Assembly (NCBI GenBank): GCA_040754075.1 | Contig: JBFMDH010000019.1 | Location: 1 to 64,000 of the forward strand | DNA from: Acidobacteriota bacterium | GTDB taxonomy: Bacteria; Acidobacteriota; Blastocatellia; UBA7656 | DNA: 64,000 nucleotides | Reading direction: 5' to 3' | In this document: piece after piece, positions 9,937 through 21,123 of the stretch | Numbering within the stretch: the stretch's first letter is position 1 | Layout of the letters: every line of letters begins with the position of its first letter | Translations under genes and position numbers: made by a program | Notes under the pieces: model-generated | Told to the model about the DNA's origin: nothing | The model's database searches: none | What the model saw: the letters and a program-made list of their open reading frames with translations, nothing else

Positions 9937-11796
9937 ATGGTGAAAGCTCAAAGATATTCAACCCCTATGAAAAAGCGAAACCGATGGATTCCCAATGGAC
10001 TGAGCGTCTTTACCTCTTCGGTTTACCTCTTTCTTTACGCGCCGATAATCGTACTGGTGGTGCTTTCGTTTAACAATTCGCGGTTCAGCGCCATCTGGCA
10101 AGGCTTTTCCTGGCGCTGGTATCAACTGGCTTACAAAGATAATGAATTGATCGCTTCGTTAAGGATGAGTCTGATTATCGCGACCTTAACGACAATTATT
10201 GCCACTTTGATTGGTACGGCTGCGGCAATGGCGCTGGCGCGTTACCGTTGGCGTTATCGTCAGGCAACCGAATCACTGGTTTATCTGCCGGTCATCATTC
10301 CTGAAATCGTTATCGGTTTTGCGAGCGCAGCCTTGTTCGGATTAGTCGGTTTTAAGTTTGGCATTTCAACCGTCGTCATCGCCCATGTGGCGTTTGCCGT
10401 GTCGTATGTAATTTTTGTAGTGCGCGCCAGAGTCGCGGGGTTCGACCGGCGACTTGAAGATGCCGCGATGGATTTAGGCGCGACGCCACTGCAAACCTTT
10501 TTCCGCGTGACGCTGCCGATTATTTTGCCGGGGATTATTTCAGCCGCCTTACTGGTTTTTACGATTTCTCTTGATGATTTTGTCATCACCAGTTTTGTGG
10601 CAGGACCTGGGGCGGCAACCTTGCCGATAAAAATTTATTCGATGGTAAAGACCGGCGTAACGCCTGAAATCAATGCCATCTCAACGATTTTATTACTCGT
10701 CACCATTTTGTTGGTTTTTGTTTCTGAAAAAATTTCATCAGGCAAATCATCGAAATGGGTTGGCGTAGCGGGAATCGCGGCTATCGGCGTCCTGACCTTT
10801 TTTGCCTTCGGCGGGCAGGCGAAATCAACTCAAGGCGGCGAATTGAATATTTTTATCTGGTCAAATTATCTGCCTGACCAGGTCGTTCAGGAATTTGAAG
10901 CAAAATATGGTACGAAATTAAATATCGAACTTTATGATTCAAATGAAGCGTTGCTTGCTAAATTACAATCCGGCGGCGCAAGTTACGACCTCATCGTTCC
11001 CAGCGATTACATGGTTTCGGTGTTAAAAGCTCAAGGGCTAATCGAAGAAATCAACCTTGATGCGATTGCCAATTTTTCCAACCTTGATTCGCAATTTGTC
11101 GGTCTGCCTTATGACCCGCAAAACCGGTTTTCAATCGCTTATATGTGGGGAACCACTGGTATCGCCTATCGAAAGGATAAAATTACAGAACCGATTGAGA
11201 GTTGGTCGTCGCTGCTGGATGAAAAATATCGCGACCGCATTGCCATGCTTGATGATGTCCGCGAAACCCTTGGCGCGATGTTGAAATATCAAGGGTACTC
11301 ATTGAACAGTAAAAACGAAGCGGAAATTTCCAGTGCGGCAAAACTGTTATCCGGGCAGAAACCGCTTGTCAAAGCCTATGATTCAGGTGGCTTTGATCAG
11401 ATGTTGCTATCGGGTGACATATGGATTACTCAGGCTTACAGCGGGCAGATTGCCAAGGTGATGGCTGATAATCCCAATATCGGTTATGTCGTCCCAAAAG
11501 AAGGTTGCACGATTTTTGTTGATAACCTTTGCATTCCAAAATCTGCGCGCCATAAAGCACTGGCTTTGGAATTTATCGACTTTGTTTTAGACCAGCGAAT
11601 TGCTGCCGAAATCGCTAACGATACAGGTTTTTCTTCGCCCAATCGCGCTGCCCGGGGCTTAATCAAACCGGAATTATTAACTAATGAAGCGGCGTATCCA
11701 CCAATCGAATTGCTTGAACGTTGTGAATTTATCGAAGAGCTTGGCGAGGCGATAAACATTTATGACCGGCTATGGACGCAAATAAAATCCGAGTAG
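9937..11796 (+). CDS. Fused ABC permease and binding protein, polyamine type (PotC-PotD)
   Basis: A 619-residue fusion. Residues about 15-275 form a PotC-like permease with six predicted helices. Its ABC-coupling EAA loop reads DAAMDLGATPLQTFFRVTLP. A membrane segment near 285-300 then leads into a PotD-like binding domain (about 305-619) opening with LNIFIWSNYLPDQVVQEFE and containing YDLIVPSDYMV and the later Trp/Tyr/Asp pocket region. By family it imports spermidine or putrescine. The binding domain is thus tethered to the outer face of the inner membrane. No ATPase (PotA) or second permease (PotB) is in the window. The start is uncertain; an in-frame ATG at 9967 is equally possible. Confidence 0.88.
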   Translation: MVKAQRYSTPMKKRNRWIPNGLSVFTSSVYLFLYAPIIVLVVLSFNNSRFSAIWQGFSWRWYQLAYKDNELIASLRMSLIIATLTTIIATLIGTAAAMALARYRWRYRQATESLVYLPVIIPEIVIGFASAALFGLVGFKFGISTVVIAHVAFAVSYVIFVVRARVAGFDRRLEDAAMDLGATPLQTFFRVTLPIILPGIISAALLVFTISLDDFVITSFVAGPGAATLPIKIYSMVKTGVTPEINAISTILLLVTILLVFVSEKISSGKSSKWVGVAGIAAIGVLTFFAFGGQAKSTQGGELNIFIWSNYLPDQVVQEFEAKYGTKLNIELYDSNEALLAKLQSGGASYDLIVPSDYMVSVLKAQGLIEEINLDAIANFSNLDSQFVGLPYDPQNRFSIAYMWGTTGIAYRKDKITEPIESWSSLLDEKYRDRIAMLDDVRETLGAMLKYQGYSLNSKNEAEISSAAKLLSGQKPLVKAYDSGGFDQMLLSGDIWITQAYSGQIAKVMADNPNIGYVVPKEGCTIFVDNLCIPKSARHKALALEFIDFVLDQRIAAEIANDTGFSSPNRAARGLIKPELLTNEAAYPPIELLERCEFIEELGEAINIYDRLWTQIKSE

Positions 11797-12068: not shown

Positions 12069-12542
12069 ATGAAAGTGAAAACAACTTTTGTGGGGATGGT
12101 TCTGGCTGTATTTCTTTTACCCTTAATTCATACCGGCTCATTGGTTGAGGCAAGCGCCGCGCAAAAAGGCAAAGGTAAAGTTGTGGAATCGCACGCTCAA
12201 AAAAGTCGCGGGGGCGGAGCCGATGAAAATATAAAAAGCGATTCGGACACCAATAGCACGAGCAGTAATATACCGGCTCCTCCGAAAAAAGGTGGGGCGC
12301 GGAGCAAAGGTGCCGGTACGTGCGCCGTCTTTGTTGATAATCGAACCGGCTTTTATATTCGCATCTACGTGGATGGAAGCTATCGCGGCACGCTTTCACC
12401 CTGGGGCGATGCGTACTGCTACACCGGTTCAGGAGCCACCAAATTATATGCGGTCGCCATATTTGATGATGGCAGCCGCTTTACCTGGGGACCCAACGCG
12501 GTGAATTGTTTAGACAGCTACACCTGGCGGTTGTATCAGTAA
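12069..12542 (+). CDS. Small exported protein with C-terminal Cys-containing beta domain
   Basis: A 157-residue protein with a signal peptide (cleavage probably after VEASA, about residue 31), a Lys/Gly/Ser/Asn-rich unstructured stretch (about 32-80), and a compact C-terminal domain of about 70 residues with three Cys. That domain contains FVDNRTGFYIRIYVDG and GTLSPWGDAYCY. I do not recognise a named family. The ribosome site AGGAGATAG lies just upstream of the ATG. It is the first gene of a cluster with three large exported proteases, 73 nt ahead of the caspase-like gene, so it may be a substrate, inhibitor or surface partner; that role is inference. Confidence 0.75.
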   Translation: MKVKTTFVGMVLAVFLLPLIHTGSLVEASAAQKGKGKVVESHAQKSRGGGADENIKSDSDTNSTSSNIPAPPKKGGARSKGAGTCAVFVDNRTGFYIRIYVDGSYRGTLSPWGDAYCYTGSGATKLYAVAIFDDGSRFTWGPNAVNCLDSYTWRLYQ

Positions 12543-12615
12543 TTTGCGGATTTATCGGGGCAACGCTGGGGTTGCCCCGTTGGCTAATTCGAGGATGTAA
12601 CCCGGAGTCGTTGAG

Positions 12616-15099
12616 ATGGTACGGAAATTCTTTTTTACTTTTTTGATTTTAGTTTTATCGTTTTCGCAGATTTCAAAAAGCGATACGGCTGAAGCAATAA
12701 ACCATCCCAATCAAGCTGTTCAATCATCGACCCGACGCGCGCTTTTAGTGGGCATCAATTTATATCAACCTGGTGTTGGTTTGAATCAATGCAAACCGGA
12801 TGGAGAATTCAGTGAACCTACCGCCGTTAAACCGCAAAAAAGTAAGGTTGCGATAACCAAATCTCAAAGAGTTCCAGCCGTTAAGAATTCATCTGGACAA
12901 GCCAAAGGCGGCGCGGTGAGCGGCACCCCCGGACGCAGCGCTTTCGGAAATCTTTGTGGCCCGGCAAAAGATATTGAAGAGATGGAAACCGTTCTGAAAT
13001 CAAAATTCGGGTTTACCGAAATAACCGTTTTAAAAGACCAGGAAGCCACCCGCGAAAATATTTTGCAGACCTTTCAAAAACATCTGATTGACGATACGAA
13101 ACCCGGTGATATTTGCTTTTTCTTTTATTCGGGACATGGCTCGAAAGTAAAAAATTCGGCATCAATCGAAGATGATAAATATGATGAGAGCATCGTTCCG
13201 GCTGATTCTTTCAAAGGCGCGCGCGATATTCGCGATAAGGAATTAGCCGACCTTTATAATCGAGCCATTGATAAAGGTGTGGTGTTGACGGTGATTTCCG
13301 ATAGTTGCCACAGCGGTTCAAATGCGCGCGGAGCCGGTTATCCGATAGCTGAACGAGTTCGCGCTTTACCGTTTGATGAAAATGATGTGAAGGACGGCAA
13401 ACGCCCGGAAAAATCTGCCGAAGAACGTGGCGCGTTGGTGATTGCCGCGGCACAGGATTATCAGGAAGCCAAAGAACGCATGCGAAACGGTATCTGGCGC
13501 GGCAATCTTGCATATTCTCTGGTTAATGTATTGAAATCACCGACGGTTTCGCCCAACGAATCGGCTGAAAAAATTTATCAACGGGTTGTCGCGTTTATGA
13601 AAGGCGATGGGGTGAATGAACAGCCGGTGATTTCCGGTGAAGCCCGTCGCTTGAAAAGAGCCTTGTTTGGATGGGATGCCGCCTCAACCGATTTGCCGAC
13701 GGTTGCCGTTATCAGTAAGGATGGCAATCTGGTAACGCTTCAAGGCGGGTTGGCAATGGGTTTAAATACTGATTGTGAGTTAAAAAAGCAAACCGCCACC
13801 AAAGAGCCGCCGGTTCGCCTGAAAATAACCAAATTGAACGGCATCGATTCCTGCGATGCGCTGGTTATTGAAGGCAATGCGAAAAACATCACGAAAGGCG
13901 ATATTTTCGTCTTAGACCGTTGGGTGACTCGCGACCACGCCATTTTAACCGTGTGGATTCCACAGGCTGTGGATTTTCGAGATATTGAAAAACAGACAGC
14001 AGAAATTAATAAATTAAAGTCATCGCCAAAAATCGAATGGTTAGATGACCCGACAGAAATTAGTAAATCACCCGCAAATTTACCATTGGCGATTATATTC
14101 TATGACAATGGTTGGAAATTGAAGCTTGCGGAAACGGTGGAGAATTTAGGCGCGAATATTGTCGCCAGCGATGTCATCGCCAAATTGAGTGAAGTGAAAA
14201 AAATTAAATTATTTATTCACCTGCCGCCGGTAAAAGAGATTGCTCAAAACTTGCAAATCGGCAAAGGGACACGCAGGGAAGCGATTGCAGTATCAAATTC
14301 CCCTGACAATGCCCAATACTTTCTTGTTGGGCGAATGATTGAAAGCAGTTTGGAATATGCCTGGGTTCGTCCCGGTAGCAGATTGGCGACTAGTACATCG
14401 GCAAATGACCCGTTACCTTCACGAAGTGATTGGTTCAGGCTTGAAGGAACGGGAGAGACCTGGAATCAAACCATTGAAAGCTTAACCGACCGTGTAGTGA
14501 CGCTCGGAAAAATTCGCGGGTGGTTACAACTGGATGCGCCCAATGAAGGTCGCAATTTCCCTTATAAACTTGCCTTGAGAAATACCGACACCGGTGAACT
14601 GGTAACCGGCAATTGTCGAAAAAACGGAGAGCCGGTTCCGTGTGAAGTCAAAGAAGGGCAGAAATTTGATTTGGTGCTGGTCGCCGATAAAGGGCAATTG
14701 AAACCGGATATCAAACCCCAACGGGTTTATGTGTTTACCATTGATAGCGAAGGAACCGGCTATTTATTGTTTAATCGCTTTGGCAATGTCGAAAATAAAA
14801 TCCCCAAAAATCCGAGCAACCCACAGCCGGTTGAATTACTGGGCACTCCCGGAATGATTAAATATGTTCCGCCATTCGGACTGGATACTTATATTCTGAT
14901 AACCACGGATGATGAAGTCGGATTAAGCGACCCCAAGGTTTTGGAATTTACCGGCGCGATTCAACGAAAAGGCGGACAAGGGATGTTTGAGAGTTTAATT
15001 GATGATTTACGCACAGGCACGCGCGGTCCTGTCGCAGAAGTTCCGCTTAACTGGTCAATCGAAAGATTGTTTATTCGCAGTGTTGCTAAAAATAATTAG
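12616..15099 (+). CDS. Exported caspase-like (C14) protease with C-terminal DUF4384-like region
   Basis: An 827-residue protein. A signal peptide (about 1-25) is followed by a caspase/metacaspase-type domain (about 40-350). The catalytic pair appears as His174 in YSGHGS and Cys231 in SDSCHSG, both in their usual setting after hydrophobic strands. RRALLVGINLY at about 40 is the first strand of this fold. The middle (about 370-600) is beta-rich and unassigned. The C-terminal part (about 620-790), with YVFTIDSEGTGYLLFNRFG and PPFG, resembles the DUF4384 domain often joined to bacterial caspases. It lies 73 nt after the small exported protein and 45 nt before the M48 gene. Cleavage after Arg or Lys is usual for metacaspases, but specificity cannot be read here. 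Confidence 0.88.
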   Translation: MVRKFFFTFLILVLSFSQISKSDTAEAINHPNQAVQSSTRRALLVGINLYQPGVGLNQCKPDGEFSEPTAVKPQKSKVAITKSQRVPAVKNSSGQAKGGAVSGTPGRSAFGNLCGPAKDIEEMETVLKSKFGFTEITVLKDQEATRENILQTFQKHLIDDTKPGDICFFFYSGHGSKVKNSASIEDDKYDESIVPADSFKGARDIRDKELADLYNRAIDKGVVLTVISDSCHSGSNARGAGYPIAERVRALPFDENDVKDGKRPEKSAEERGALVIAAAQDYQEAKERMRNGIWRGNLAYSLVNVLKSPTVSPNESAEKIYQRVVAFMKGDGVNEQPVISGEARRLKRALFGWDAASTDLPTVAVISKDGNLVTLQGGLAMGLNTDCELKKQTATKEPPVRLKITKLNGIDSCDALVIEGNAKNITKGDIFVLDRWVTRDHAILTVWIPQAVDFRDIEKQTAEINKLKSSPKIEWLDDPTEISKSPANLPLAIIFYDNGWKLKLAETVENLGANIVASDVIAKLSEVKKIKLFIHLPPVKEIAQNLQIGKGTRREAIAVSNSPDNAQYFLVGRMIESSLEYAWVRPGSRLATSTSANDPLPSRSDWFRLEGTGETWNQTIESLTDRVVTLGKIRGWLQLDAPNEGRNFPYKLALRNTDTGELVTGNCRKNGEPVPCEVKEGQKFDLVLVADKGQLKPDIKPQRVYVFTIDSEGTGYLLFNRFGNVENKIPKNPSNPQPVELLGTPGMIKYVPPFGLDTYILITTDDEVGLSDPKVLEFTGAIQRKGGQGMFESLIDDLRTGTRGPVAEVPLNWSIERLFIRSVAKNN

Positions 15100-15144
15100 G
15101 TCTGACATTGTTCGAGAATCATTTTCCGTGTTCGGTGATTTTAT

Positions 15145-17070
15145 ATGAATGAATCCACAGCCTTGTTTAATCCATCGGGTAAAACACATCTGGCAAAGCA
15201 ACTCCTCGCAATCCTTTTTTGTTGCTTTTTCATCGCGATTTTTCAAATTGCTGCACAGGCGCAGTCCAGGGTTGAACTGGGAAGAGGCATTGACCCCGCT
15301 GACCCGAATATCATTTTATTAAAAGATGTTTGGGCTAAAACTCTTAGTAATGCCAAAGCGCCCGCAGGCATTAAATTTCCTCCCTTCCTATATGTCATTT
15401 CGGAAGACGAACAGAAGGGAATGAATAAAGACCCCAATGTGCCGGATGCCTTTGCAACCTTAGTGAGCATCCAGAGCCAGTATTATCCGGTTGTAGTTGT
15501 GAATATGTCTTTGCTGACGAAAATTATCGAAGGCAACGATGCGCGCCTGGCATACGTGCTTGGGCATGAAATTTCCCATCATACCCTGGGGCATGTAAAA
15601 GCCGTGCGGGCAACCGGAAAGACCAAATTTTTATTGACTGCTTTTTCCCGCGAACAGGAACTGAATGCTGATAAAAACGGCATGATGCTGACGCTGGCAT
15701 CCGGTTATGCGTTTCAAGATGCGCTTGGCGGAATGCGTCGCTTCATCGAATTGGGAATGGAGTATTCGCCGCTTGAAGCGATTTCGGTTTCTCACCCTTC
15801 GTGGTCACAGCGGCTCGAAAAGATGGATAAGGAACGCGCCACGCTCTGGTCATCAATGAGCGCCTTTCGCAGCGGGGTAGTGTTTTTAGCGGTTGAACAA
15901 TTCGGTTCGGCAGAGCGCTGTTTTGATTTGGTGGTCAAACAATTTCCCGATTGTTACGAAGCCTGGGCAAACCTCGGATATGCCCGGTTGATGCAATATT
16001 GCGACCTGCTCAGTCCCGATGATATTCGCGATTTTGATGTCGGGCATATCTTGACGACGGGATTTTACACTCGTCCAAGAAGTCTGGAAGACCGTGGTCG
16101 CGGGAAGGATGCGAACCTTTGGCGACAGGCGGTCGAGGCATTAAATCAGGCATTAACCCTGAATCCCCATTTAACTCTGGCGAAAGCCAATCTCGGAATT
16201 GCCTATCTGGTTAAACCCGATGGCAAGGATGCAAAGTCTGCCACACAGTTTTTGGAAGAAGCGGTTGGAGATTTAAAAGATGATAAAGACCTTGATTTAT
16301 TAAGGCGGATTGTGATTTTGGCGAATGCCGGAGTGGCAAATCTGGCTGCGGGAAATTTAGAGTTGAGCGGTAAACGAACACTTGAGGCATTCGATTTGGG
16401 TGGGAACAAAAGTTTGCTTACGGCTCCGGCGATTCTTTACAACTATGCGGTCGCGCTCGAACGCGAAGGCACACCGGAACAGAAAAAGAAAGCCGCGCAG
16501 ATTCTATATGATTATTTAAGAGTGGCGAGCCGTTCATCGGTGTGGTTTCCCATCGGCAACGAGCGTTACCAGCATTTGTGTAGTGAACAGTCATTGGCAT
16601 GTAAACCTGCCGAATCGATTGTGATGGTTGCCAATCGCCTGATTTTCGGTCTGGAATTGGGAAAAGGGCGAACCGTAGGGTTGACGGATTCAATGGCGAA
16701 TGTTGAAAAATCATTAGGAAAACCCGTGCCTATCCCGGTGGTGAAAAATGCCAGTATCCGAAAGTTAAAATATCCGCAAATGGGAATCGAAATATTGGGA
16801 CGTGAACAGGTGATGGCGATTTCACTTTTGACGCCGGCGGCTCCACCGATTTCCGTTCGTCGTCGCGGACTTGGCAGTCAGGCGAATCTGTTACGAGTCG
16901 GAATGCCCGAAGCGCAATTTACCAGCATTGTCGGTAAAGAATTTACCGACACCAAAATCATCAACCCTTTAATTCCATATCGCTTTTATCCTGACCTCGG
17001 CATCGCCGCTCGATTTATAAAAGGTGTGGTTTCGGAAATCATGATTGTTCAGGTTCCCAGGGAAAAATGA
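15145..17070 (+). CDS. Exported M48-family metalloprotease with TPRs
   Basis: A 641-residue protein with a signal peptide ending near AAQAQS (about residue 40). The peptidase domain (about 45-230) has the zinc motif HEISH (His141, Glu142, His145) and the third ligand region ELNAD (Glu172, Asp176), typical of M48 peptidases such as BepA. TPR-like helices follow (about 240-480; EQFGSAERCFDLVVKQFPDCYEAWANLG is cut here to its theme of repeat hairpins). A beta-rich C-terminal domain of about 130 residues is unassigned. Soluble M48-TPR proteins of this type act in the periplasm on misfolded envelope proteins. It lies 45 nt after the caspase-like gene and 26 nt before the CHAT gene. Confidence 0.88.
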   Translation: MNESTALFNPSGKTHLAKQLLAILFCCFFIAIFQIAAQAQSRVELGRGIDPADPNIILLKDVWAKTLSNAKAPAGIKFPPFLYVISEDEQKGMNKDPNVPDAFATLVSIQSQYYPVVVVNMSLLTKIIEGNDARLAYVLGHEISHHTLGHVKAVRATGKTKFLLTAFSREQELNADKNGMMLTLASGYAFQDALGGMRRFIELGMEYSPLEAISVSHPSWSQRLEKMDKERATLWSSMSAFRSGVVFLAVEQFGSAERCFDLVVKQFPDCYEAWANLGYARLMQYCDLLSPDDIRDFDVGHILTTGFYTRPRSLEDRGRGKDANLWRQAVEALNQALTLNPHLTLAKANLGIAYLVKPDGKDAKSATQFLEEAVGDLKDDKDLDLLRRIVILANAGVANLAAGNLELSGKRTLEAFDLGGNKSLLTAPAILYNYAVALEREGTPEQKKKAAQILYDYLRVASRSSVWFPIGNERYQHLCSEQSLACKPAESIVMVANRLIFGLELGKGRTVGLTDSMANVEKSLGKPVPIPVVKNASIRKLKYPQMGIEILGREQVMAISLLTPAAPPISVRRRGLGSQANLLRVGMPEAQFTSIVGKEFTDTKIINPLIPYRFYPDLGIAARFIKGVVSEIMIVQVPREK

Positions 17071-17096
17071 TTTTTAAATCAGACAGGTAGGATGTT

Positions 17097-20000
17097 GTGA
17101 CAAAAATTCATTGCAAAATTTTTGTTTGCCTGAATATTTTTTTCCTCCTGCAATCCACAGGTCTGGCAACTCCTTTTATTCAACAACCGCAAAACCCGAT
17201 AAGCAACTCCACACAAAAAGCAGCCGTGCCGGATGAGAAAATTCAAAAACGCATCAATGAATTATTGGAACAAGGGAACACCTTGCTTGCAGCATATGAG
17301 GTTCAAAAAATCTTTCCACTTCTTGAAGAAGGTCTAAAGTTATCCAGACAGATTCAATCGCTTGATTCAGAGGTTGGCTTCCTGGCGTTGTTTACCAGTT
17401 CCTATTATGTCGCCGGTGATAAAGCAAAATCGATTGATTATGGAAAGCAACTGATCGACAAGATTGATGCAACGGATGCCAAAGACGAAAAATTTGTTTT
17501 TCTCGGACTAATCGCCAAAGCCAGCAAAGATTTACAACGATACGATGAGGCAATCAACTATTATCAGCAATGCCTCGCGGCGTTGAGTGCTCTTAAAGAA
17601 AAGCCCGATACCCTCGCTCAATATGAACTCACGACCTTGATAAACCTTGGAGAGTTATTACTGTTATTGAAACGCTTTGATGCCTGTATAGGGGTTTATA
17701 CACGCTCTGTTGAACTGACACGGAAATTGAACCAACCGGGTAATCAAGGGCTGCTGTTGGTTCTGTTGGCTAAATCCTATATTGGCAATAATGAAAACGA
17801 GAAAGGGATTAGCCAACTCGACCTAGCCAAACCGATGCTGAAAGACACCAAAGATAGTGAATTAAAAATTCTGGAGATGTTGGTCAGAGGGGAAGCGAAT
17901 TTGAATCTCGGTCGGTTTGAAGAAGCCCTGAAAATATTTTCTTCCGCTTACCTAACCGCGCAACAATTAAACGCCCGGATTTACCTGATTTCTTTAAGCA
18001 ATATGATAGGGCGTTGCCATTTAGGAATGGGAAATTATGATGAAGCCTTTAAACTCTTTGATCGGTCGTTGGCGTTGGTACGCGATACCCAATCGAATCG
18101 TCAAGCGGGTATACAAGAGATATTGAGCATAGCCGGAAACGAAGGCGATTTACTCAATAGTATCGGGCAGATTTACAGCGATACCGGACAACATGAGCGG
18201 GCGCTGGAATATTTTAAACAGGCAAGAGAGGCATCGCATAAAATCGGGGCAATTACTTATGAACTTGCCGCGATCAATAATATCGGGCAATCCTATACCT
18301 ACCTTCGCAATCATACCGAAGCCCGCAAGTATTACCTTCTGGCGCTCGACCTGCAAAAGCAGATTTCCAATCGGGCAATGGAAGCCTTGATTTTAAATAA
18401 TCTGGCATCCACGCATCTGATGAGCGGAGAAACCGATGAAGCAATCCATTATTTCAAACGCGCCATAGAAATTTCTCAGGAAACCCGTCAACGAATAGCC
18501 GAATCGTGGGCTTTACAAAATTATGGGTATGCCCTGCAACGCAAGGGCGAACTCGATCAGGCGATGGAAAATTATCTGAAAGCCCTCATGCTGGCGCGTG
18601 AGTTGAAAAATATCCGCAGCGAAAGTTTTGTCCTGACCCTTTTAATGCTCGGTTGGATGGAAAAAGCCAATCCCAAACTGGCAATATTTTTCGGGAAACA
18701 GGCAATCAATCTGTTTCAAAAAACTCGCAAACAATTGGTTAATATCGATAAAGATTCCCAACAAAGTTTCATTCAGGAACGCAAAGATGTTTATAAAATT
18801 CTGGCGGATTTGTTGATTGAAGAAGGGCGATTGCCGGAAGCGCAACAGGTTTTGGATTTGCTCAAACAGGAAGAGTTTTACGAGTTTGTCCGGCGCGATA
18901 GCAACGCGACAACCGATGCAAAAAATGCTGAGTTGAGTAGCGAAGAAAGTCAATGGGAGCAGCGTTATTTACAAATCGCCGACCGGGTGACTTCGATTGG
19001 CTTTGAATATAATTCGTTGTTAAGCAAGCTCAACCGCACCTCGGCTGATGAAACCCGGTTGGTTGAATTGGAAAAAGATTTGGAGGTTGCCGGACAGGCT
19101 TTTCAAAAATTCATTAATGACTTAAAAAATGAAGCCGCGACCCGGCAAACCTCATCGAATCGCATTGCTCAAATTGAAGAGAACCAGGGACTCCGAAACG
19201 ACCTCGAAGAGTTAGGTGATAATTCGGTGGCGCTGTATACGCTGGTGTTAAAAGATAAGCTGAGAATCATTTTAATCACTCCGAAAACACAGAAGGCTGC
19301 CGAATTTGCGATACCCGAAGCGGAACTGAGCAAAAAAATATTTGCCTTTCGCCAAGCCTTACAAACTCCGGCGATTGACCCGCAACCGCTGGCACAGGAA
19401 CTTTATAAAATCATCTTTGCGCCGATTGCGAAAGATTTAGAAGGCGCGCGCGCCAGAACGTTGATGTGGTCATTGGAAGGCATTCTCAGATATTTGCCCA
19501 TCGCGGCATTACATGATGGCAATCAATATCTGGTGGAAAAATATCGAAACGTGATTTTTACGCCCGCGAGTAATGCCAGGTTGAAAGACCCCGTCAGTCC
19601 AAAATGGCGTGGCATCGGACTCGGTGTTTCAAAAGGCGCGGATGGCTTCGTGCCTTTGCCGGGGGTGCTCAAAGAGTTGAATACAATTTTTAATATTGAA
19701 AATAGAGATAAACCCAATCCAATGGCTGGCGGCATTTTACCGGGAGTGGTAAAACTCGATGAAGAGTTTACCGCTGAGGCTTTTAAAGCGGCGCTCAGGC
19801 AAAAAGTTCCGGTCGTTCACATCGCCTCGCATTTTCAATTTAAACCGGGGAACGAGACCAATTCATTTTTACTGCTTGGCGATGGTTCGCATTTGTCGCT
19901 TGCAGAACTCAAACGCCTGCCGAGCATTTTCAATGGGGTCGAATTATTGACGCTTTCAGCCTGTCAAACTGCGGTTGGCAGCACTTCGGATGATGGTAAA

Positions 20001-20336
20001 GAGGTTGATGGACTTGCGATTGTTGCTCAACAACAAGGCGCGAAGGCGATCATCGCCTCTTTGTGGTCGGTTGCCGATGAGAGCACGAGTTTATTGATGC
20101 GGGAATTTTATTCTTTGCGGGAATCCAATAAAGGATTGTCAAAAGCCGAGGCGTTACGTCAGGCGCAGCTTAAATTGTTAAACGGTAAAGTGACCGGAAA
20201 ACCTCTGACTCAAATGCAAAGAGGACCCATTTCCGAAGATTTAAACAAAGAGAAAAAATTTGTTGTAAACCCGAAAGCGCCTTTTGCGCACCCCTACTTT
20301 TGGGCGCCGTTTATTCTGATTGGCAACTGGAAGTAA
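17097..20336 (+). CDS. Exported TPR-CHAT protease-like protein
   Basis: A 1079-residue protein starting at a GTG (an ATG 5 nt upstream is followed at once by a stop); the ribosome site CAGGTAGGA lies before it. A hydrophobic leader suggests export. About ten TPR-type repeats span roughly 60-590, many with the pattern NLG..Y...G....A..Y. A coiled region leads to a CHAT domain (about 780-1079), a caspase-related fold. The expected catalytic pair is His912 (HIASHF) and Cys956 (SACQTA). The C-terminal block with AIIASLWSVADESTSLLM is the conserved end of the domain. It closes the four-gene cluster. TPRs probably recruit partners or substrates. Confidence 0.9.
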   Translation: MTKIHCKIFVCLNIFFLLQSTGLATPFIQQPQNPISNSTQKAAVPDEKIQKRINELLEQGNTLLAAYEVQKIFPLLEEGLKLSRQIQSLDSEVGFLALFTSSYYVAGDKAKSIDYGKQLIDKIDATDAKDEKFVFLGLIAKASKDLQRYDEAINYYQQCLAALSALKEKPDTLAQYELTTLINLGELLLLLKRFDACIGVYTRSVELTRKLNQPGNQGLLLVLLAKSYIGNNENEKGISQLDLAKPMLKDTKDSELKILEMLVRGEANLNLGRFEEALKIFSSAYLTAQQLNARIYLISLSNMIGRCHLGMGNYDEAFKLFDRSLALVRDTQSNRQAGIQEILSIAGNEGDLLNSIGQIYSDTGQHERALEYFKQAREASHKIGAITYELAAINNIGQSYTYLRNHTEARKYYLLALDLQKQISNRAMEALILNNLASTHLMSGETDEAIHYFKRAIEISQETRQRIAESWALQNYGYALQRKGELDQAMENYLKALMLARELKNIRSESFVLTLLMLGWMEKANPKLAIFFGKQAINLFQKTRKQLVNIDKDSQQSFIQERKDVYKILADLLIEEGRLPEAQQVLDLLKQEEFYEFVRRDSNATTDAKNAELSSEESQWEQRYLQIADRVTSIGFEYNSLLSKLNRTSADETRLVELEKDLEVAGQAFQKFINDLKNEAATRQTSSNRIAQIEENQGLRNDLEELGDNSVALYTLVLKDKLRIILITPKTQKAAEFAIPEAELSKKIFAFRQALQTPAIDPQPLAQELYKIIFAPIAKDLEGARARTLMWSLEGILRYLPIAALHDGNQYLVEKYRNVIFTPASNARLKDPVSPKWRGIGLGVSKGADGFVPLPGVLKELNTIFNIENRDKPNPMAGGILPGVVKLDEEFTAEAFKAALRQKVPVVHIASHFQFKPGNETNSFLLLGDGSHLSLAELKRLPSIFNGVELLTLSACQTAVGSTSDDGKEVDGLAIVAQQQGAKAIIASLWSVADESTSLLMREFYSLRESNKGLSKAEALRQAQLKLLNGKVTGKPLTQMQRGPISEDLNKEKKFVVNPKAPFAHPYFWAPFILIGNWK

Positions 20337-20544: not shown

Positions 20545-20880
20545 CTACTTGGTACAGACGTCTAATACTTCCAGAGTATCTTCCACAAGTTCCGTCGGAG
20601 CCTTTTCAATGAACTTGGCTTTTCTTGCTGTATAGTCAATGGATTTGACCTGATCGACCATGACAAAGCCGGTTAGCGATGACGTAGCCGGAACCGGCAA
20701 ATGAAAGGGGATATTGCGGTTGGTGCTGGTTATTGGACAGACAATTGCCAGCCCTGTGTGCTTATTAAACAAATAATTACTGATTACCAGCGCGGGCCGC
20801 CGCCCTTTCTGCTCGTGTCCAGATTGCGGATCGAATGACAGAGCGATGAAGTCGCCTTTCTGAGGGACATATTTCGCCAT
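20545..20880 (-). CDS. mazF: MazF-family mRNA-cleaving toxin
   Basis: A 111-residue protein of usual MazF length. The N-terminal GDFIALSFDPQSGHEQKGRRPALVIS segment is the family signature (its Arg and the later PITST Thr form the usual active site), and the C-terminal half reads FVMVDQVKSID. It cuts RNA at short sequences and is held inactive by MazE. Its ATG follows the mazE stop with no gap (TAAATG), so translation is coupled. It is directly followed by an attC-like site. Confidence 0.93.
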   Translation of the reverse strand: MAKYVPQKGDFIALSFDPQSGHEQKGRRPALVISNYLFNKHTGLAIVCPITSTNRNIPFHLPVPATSSLTGFVMVDQVKSIDYTARKAKFIEKAPTELVEDTLEVLDVCTK

Positions 20881-21123
20881 TTACCATTCTTCCTTGCCGA
20901 CTGGTTTACCCAAGAATTCTTCGTGAGGTTTGTAATTGCGAGGCATGCGAGAAACCATTTCGGCTAAGTCAAATTTCCTTTTGGATATTTTCTTTATGGT
21001 GATTTGACCTTCTTGAGGGATGACCTCGACATTGTCCCCGACAGAGATATCGGCGCTCTCCAACACATGCTTCGGAAGCCGTAAGCCTTGGCTGTTGCCC
21101 CATCTTTGAACCTTGGACATCAT
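20881..21123 (-). CDS. mazE: MazE-family AbrB-type antitoxin
   Basis: An 80-residue protein. Residues 3-47 form an AbrB/MazE swapped-hairpin DNA-binding domain (VQRWGNSQGLRLPKHVLE.. and VGDNVEV), and the acidic/aromatic C-terminal tail is the usual MazF-blocking peptide. Two start Met codons are adjacent; a ribosome site AGGAG is 7-11 nt upstream. The pair likely represses its own promoter, which lies 33-61 nt upstream. Confidence 0.92.
   Translation of the reverse strand: MMSKVQRWGNSQGLRLPKHVLESADISVGDNVEVIPQEGQITIKKISKRKFDLAEMVSRMPRNYKPHEEFLGKPVGKEEW

Follow-up and report, generated by a model that had tools for sequence, protein, structure and literature searches.

Described systems closest to the locus

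The nearest published precedent for the locus analysed here is the genomic context of ECF54 sigma factors, whose genes are accompanied by those for carboxypeptidase, subtilase and CHAT proteins (PMC8999054). A 2012 listing includes operons in which metacaspase genes accompany sigma factors and proteases (PMC3501461), and some members of the described metacaspase and orthocaspase operons have a probable N-terminal export signal (PMC3501461, PMC6426788). Immune systems built on caspase or CHAT enzymes are described as intracellular (PMC9612521, PMC10028731, PMC8195603). Among them, bacterial gasdermin operons place a caspase-like or CHAT protease gene next to the gene for the protein that it cuts, with cleavage reported after Leu or Arg (PMC9612521), and Craspase, of type III-E CRISPR systems, contains the TPR-CHAT protein Csx29 with a His/Cys dyad (PMC10028731, PMC9729208).

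The locus examined here lies in a 64,000-nt stretch of Acidobacteriota DNA (the window) and resembles each of these systems in part. As in the metacaspase operons, its C14 protease has a metacaspase-like catalytic region and a probable export signal, whereas a fixed small partner, an exported TPR-CHAT protein and an exchangeable second protease set it apart from them. Related loci come close to the ECF54 neighbourhoods, with their sigma gene near subtilase and CHAT genes: L062, L086 and L092 each hold sigma, anti-sigma-like, subtilase or WD40, exported caspase and TPR-CHAT genes in one run. Unlike those neighbourhoods, the window cluster has no adjoining sigma gene, and its small beta-sandwich partner and M48-TPR slot are not mentioned in the available portion of the ECF54 account (PMC8999054). 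The TPR-CHAT architecture and His/Cys dyad are shared with Craspase, but no CRISPR or gRAMP/Cas7-11 genes were seen nearby, the CHAT protein is probably exported and its partner is a C14 protease. As in gasdermin operons, a protease gene adjoins the gene for a candidate substrate; here, however, that small protein is probably exported, is predicted to be a beta-sandwich with a candidate cut site ahead of the domain, and showed no gasdermin similarity. Finally, the exported M48 domain followed by TPRs recalls the periplasmic BepA-type proteases, but the M48-TPR protein scores 11.4 bits against a BepA-model cut-off of 570 and is linked to caspase and CHAT genes. In the literature searched, which took in few subscription journals, we found no description of the small partner, of the exported trio or of the small protein-caspase pairing across phyla.

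Organization of the cluster

Four ORFs occupy positions 12069-20336 of the plus strand, separated by gaps of 73, 45 and 26 nt, so that the ORF list bears out the gene count, strand, coordinates and gaps of the preliminary description. They encode, in order, a small protein of 157 aa (12069..12542), a metacaspase/orthocaspase-like C14 protease of 827 aa with a C-terminal region of about 470 aa (12616..15099), an M48-TPR metalloprotease of 641 aa (15145..17070) and a TPR-CHAT protease of 1079 aa (17097..20336), the last from a GTG start with AGGTAGGA upstream. The catalytic residues claimed earlier are present at the positions given for them, namely H174/C231 in the caspase, H141-E-I-S-H145 with E172 in the M48 protein and H912/C956 in the CHAT protein. 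That the four genes form one expression unit is part of our best model, which we hold at somewhat below an even chance. A scan of the cluster for promoters and terminators gave no signal above chance. Between the first two genes lies a hairpin (GGGGCAAC-loop-GTTGCCCC, positions 12556..12579, plus strand) that lacks a T-run and is of unexceptional stability (z -1.2 to -1.8); it could uncouple expression of the small gene from that of the caspase, which counts against the module model. As a conserved element the hairpin was rejected, as relatives differ and the two of seven intergenic regions that fold well below shuffles do not include that of the window.

Reading of translations indicates a 619-aa ORF at 9937-11796 (plus strand), apparently a polyamine-type ABC permease fused to a periplasmic binding protein, which ends 272 nt upstream of the cluster, and a MazF-like and MazE-like pair directly downstream on the opposite strand (20545-21123). 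The host is a soil-type bacterium with a genome of 7.58 Mb holding 12 CHAT and 8 C14 genes, of which the cluster caspase is the only C14 gene with a CHAT gene within 10 kb.

Export of the encoded proteins

All four proteins have a hydrophobic N-terminal segment consistent with the export signals claimed in the preliminary description, and judged from sequence all four are very probably exported. A crude rule scores the N-terminus as signal-like in 14 of 15 small proteins and in 52 of 60 family caspases; the background rate among ORFs is 43%. In the small protein, cysteines C85 and C147 are jointly present or jointly absent in 14 of 15 homologues (both present in 10, both absent in 4), a co-occurrence consistent with a disulfide and thus with an extracytoplasmic location. 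In three cyanobacterial loci (L132, L134, L136), C14 proteins that lack an export signal are encoded at distances of 79-117 nt from a CHAT gene; the caspase-CHAT pair thus has a seemingly cytoplasmic version as well.

The same evidence bears on whether the cluster is a cytoplasmic phage-defence or suicide system like the gasdermin-caspase or Craspase loci. Its caspase and CHAT content would fit such a system, and PADLOC gave matches, but these were to generic caspase and TPR models only, plus a weak BovA match. The apparent export signals in every part and the paired cysteines speak against it, and no STAND, NACHT, TIR or gasdermin gene was recognised among the neighbours read. Because of export, we rank this reading last and consider it highly improbable. 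Comparing the cluster with immune and death systems, as in the preliminary description, carries little weight, since the caspase and CHAT immune systems known so far work in the cytoplasm.

The caspase-like protease

The caspase ORF matches Pfam Peptidase_C14 (4e-20), and its structure model has a mean pLDDT of 79. Both by sequence and by fold, the nearest solved structures are the metacaspases MCA2, Arabidopsis MC4/MC9 and GSU0716. The EACC1-type caspase model NF047832, which represents the EACC1-associated conflict systems, gave 23.9 bits against a cut-off of 140. Metacaspases cleave after Arg or Lys (PMC6426788, PMC4357240), and two S1-site aspartates are named in TbMCA2 (Asp95 and Asp211, PMC6426788; also PMC4357240). 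We equated Asp119 and Asp229 of the window caspase with these two by our own motif alignment. Both are invariant, together with H174 and C231, in 33/33 caspase homologues. The protein reads as a metacaspase-like enzyme, and the invariance of acidic residues at its S1 positions predicts cleavage after Arg or Lys. An R238-G239 pair, in a low-confidence loop right after the catalytic Cys (residues 233-242 region), is conserved in 32 of 33 homologues; that it is a site of self-cleavage is speculation.

The small exported protein

The small protein has no family match in Pfam or NCBIfam. It consists of a signal peptide, a poorly predicted basic or disordered linker and a C-terminal beta-sandwich, the last modelled confidently by AlphaFold (residues 85-156, block pLDDT 81-89). 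Matches to this fold are weak, with a best Foldseek E of 0.037 and a best VIA Z of 6.8 (AlgF N-terminal domain). Candidate fold families were scattered over cytolysin domain 4, VHL and carboxypeptidase transthyretin-like domains; as these are unrelated beta-sandwiches, we claim no family.

Just ahead of the folded domain lies a candidate processing site, R-S-K-G (codons at 12300..12317, plus strand; about residues 78-83). S-K-G in the window protein corresponds to T-R-G, S-R-G, N-R-G and similar sites in relatives. Within 12 residues ahead of the domain, [STNG][KR][GE] is found in 12 of 14 homologues against 2.2 expected from their own linkers, for a motif picked post hoc, after the alignment had been seen. 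Its absence from two homologues and the K-rich linker count against the small protein being a substrate. The earlier proposal of the small protein as a substrate is favoured, specifically but post hoc, by the conserved K/R-G site and by the Arg/Lys specificity predicted for the caspase from sequence.

One possible alternative is that the small protein is not a substrate but a stoichiometric inhibitor or chaperone of the caspase, made in excess, with the other proteases acting on outside targets. Such a partner would be paired just as tightly with the caspase, its gene stands first in the unit ahead of a hairpin that could favour its excess, and the modelled protein is a small compact beta-sandwich. 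A cleavable-looking conserved site ahead of the domain in most homologues is not what this alternative leads one to expect, and none of the weak fold matches is to an inhibitor family. We regard it as unlikely.

Linkage of the cluster genes across phyla

Profile scans for the small protein, independent of the caspase, covered 162 genomes of the class and 396 of the phylum (overlapping sets). The small protein was found in six genomes, in all 6/6 within 300 nt of an exported C14 gene on the same strand. Of the 64 C14 genes in eight genomes, 13 lie no more than 10 kb from a CHAT gene, against 3.1 expected; in three family-mate genomes that lack the small protein the count is 0/21. A contig scan with the single caspase sequence gave no matches and an alignment query was needed; with the caspase alignment as query, a scan of 84,980 species yielded 80 loci. 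Among the 57 with a full-length caspase, 12 have the small protein within 500 nt on the same strand, 29 have a CHAT gene no further than 10 kb away and 4 have an M48 gene. The 28 family caspases with no CHAT gene in reach, some of them only through short contigs, count against the module model.

The small protein-caspase pair is also present in Bacteroidota and Terriglobia. The small gene immediately precedes the caspase gene in three contigs from Bacteroidota (L088, L091 and L119, the caspases of the latter two being near identical), in the complete genome of Acidobacteriaceae ZG23-2 (L100, gap of about 10 nt) and in L107; in L109 it immediately follows the caspase gene. The exact four-gene order occurs only in the window among the genomes searched. 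The expectation in the preliminary description that relatives would share the gene order thus held for adjacent pairs and for a CHAT-caspase-M48 trio (L099, L110), but not for the full set. On a caspase tree made by a quick method, the small-protein label changes 9 times and the M48 label 3 times, which indicates that the parts were gained and lost and not inherited as a block.

Exchange of the second protease

The M48 ORF matches Pfam Peptidase_M48 (5e-13) plus TPR, and the CHAT ORF matches PF12770 (1.3e-62) plus TPR. H141, E142, H145 and E172 are invariant in 4/4 M48 homologues, as are H912 and C956 in 31/31 scorable CHAT relatives. A search with M48 alone in 15 genomes had suggested that this protein is unique to the window, an idea dropped when full-length homologues, which share 29-34% identity, were found beside caspases. 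In the Rhodothermia loci L099 and L110, M48-TPR lies directly behind the caspase (48 and 3 nt) and a large TPR-CHAT gene precedes both; in L124, an Acidobacteria contig, an M48-TPR homologue stands head to head with the caspase. In M48-only searches, the gene turned up in just 1 of the 396 genomes of Acidobacteriota, and in 6 of the 245 genomes in the class of the Rhodothermales genome of L110. Two of these six have CHAT-caspase-M48, L173 has CHAT-M48 with no caspase, and the copy in L175 adjoins a TPR-like ORF that runs off the contig. The copies in L174 and L176 are interrupted or truncated and have neither a caspase nor a CHAT gene beside them, which suggests that M48-TPR decays after loss of the module. 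The rarity of M48 and these two broken solitary Rhodothermia copies both count against the module model.

Elsewhere the M48 position is taken by a subtilase (S8; L062, 26 nt from the caspase, L063 and L067), a trypsin-like protease (L090), a second C14 caspase (L100) or a WD40 protein (L086, L027, L120). In six Acidobacteriaceae loci (L112, L113, L115, L118, L125, L129) the family caspase is followed downstream by a second, shorter caspase of about 415 aa. Because a subtilase, a trypsin-like protease or a second caspase can stand in for M48, the class of the second protease appears exchangeable, as expected for an activator or executor and not for a structural part. The recurrence of adjacent pairs in different phyla, together with the replacement of M48 at its position by proteases of unrelated classes, leads us to take the genes as belonging together in one protease module, in agreement with the preliminary description.

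The varying protease class could also be read as secreted scavenging, in which proteases for nutrition or surface turnover are co-transcribed by chance and the small protein serves as an adhesin or surface cap. Every part looks exported, in keeping with this reading. Metacaspase-like and CHAT enzymes are, however, specific and regulated proteases in known cases, and cross-phylum linkage to a 157-aa partner is hard to explain on these terms; we find scavenging quite improbable.

A further possibility is an envelope-stress relay of the ECF54 type, in which exported proteases free or activate a sigma factor via a partner and the small protein is a sensor or signal. In L086 and L092, sigma-like and anti-sigma-like genes come after CHAT, and in L062 such genes stand ahead of the subtilase-caspase genes. 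The carboxypeptidase, subtilase and CHAT genes that surround ECF54 are reported to be conserved, with a proposal of proteolytic control (PMC8999054), and sigma-70 genes are present in four Myxococcus metacaspase operons (PMC3501461). Against this, no sigma or anti-sigma gene was seen among the ORFs beside the window cluster, and a sigma match lies in reach of the caspase at only 4 of the 57 loci. Such a relay seems to us rather unlikely. The sigma-like/anti-sigma-like pairs themselves map to L086:19955-21654, L092:16309-17942 and L062:15093-17085, beside TPR-CHAT or subtilase genes.

Proposed mechanism

The model that we prefer, tentatively and with slightly less than even confidence, is an exported, orthocaspase-centred protease module, expressed as one unit, in which the small protein would be a substrate of the caspase. 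The cascade of the preliminary description, with one protease activating another, is a conjecture, as are its order and its purpose. The small pro-protein, once exported, would be cut by the caspase after the K/R of the conserved (S/T)(K/R)-G site, and the cut would set free its beta-sandwich, usually closed by a disulfide, to act as a ligand or cap. With less weight, the TPRs of the TPR-CHAT and M48-TPR proteins may serve to detect or bind targets and to turn the caspase on or off. Likewise with less weight, CHAT and the second protease might precede or follow the caspase in a short relay located in the envelope. The relay could be extracytoplasmic and resemble complement or clotting in its logic, with an orthocaspase and a CHAT protease (clan CD) and an exchangeable third protease class (M48, S8, S1 or a second C14) acting in series on a dedicated small pro-protein released as signal or effector, an extension to which we give a low probability.

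Implications

Caspase and CHAT enzymes are commonly treated as cytoplasmic death or defence factors, and the finding of pieces of this cluster side by side in distant phyla suggests a proteolytic relay outside the cytoplasm. Few natural substrates of bacterial orthocaspases have been identified; the dedicated small partner, conserved, exported and bearing a candidate cut site, allows the question of substrate to be put directly to two purified proteins. The exchange of protease classes at one position, in turn, offers a natural experiment on the assembly of such relays.
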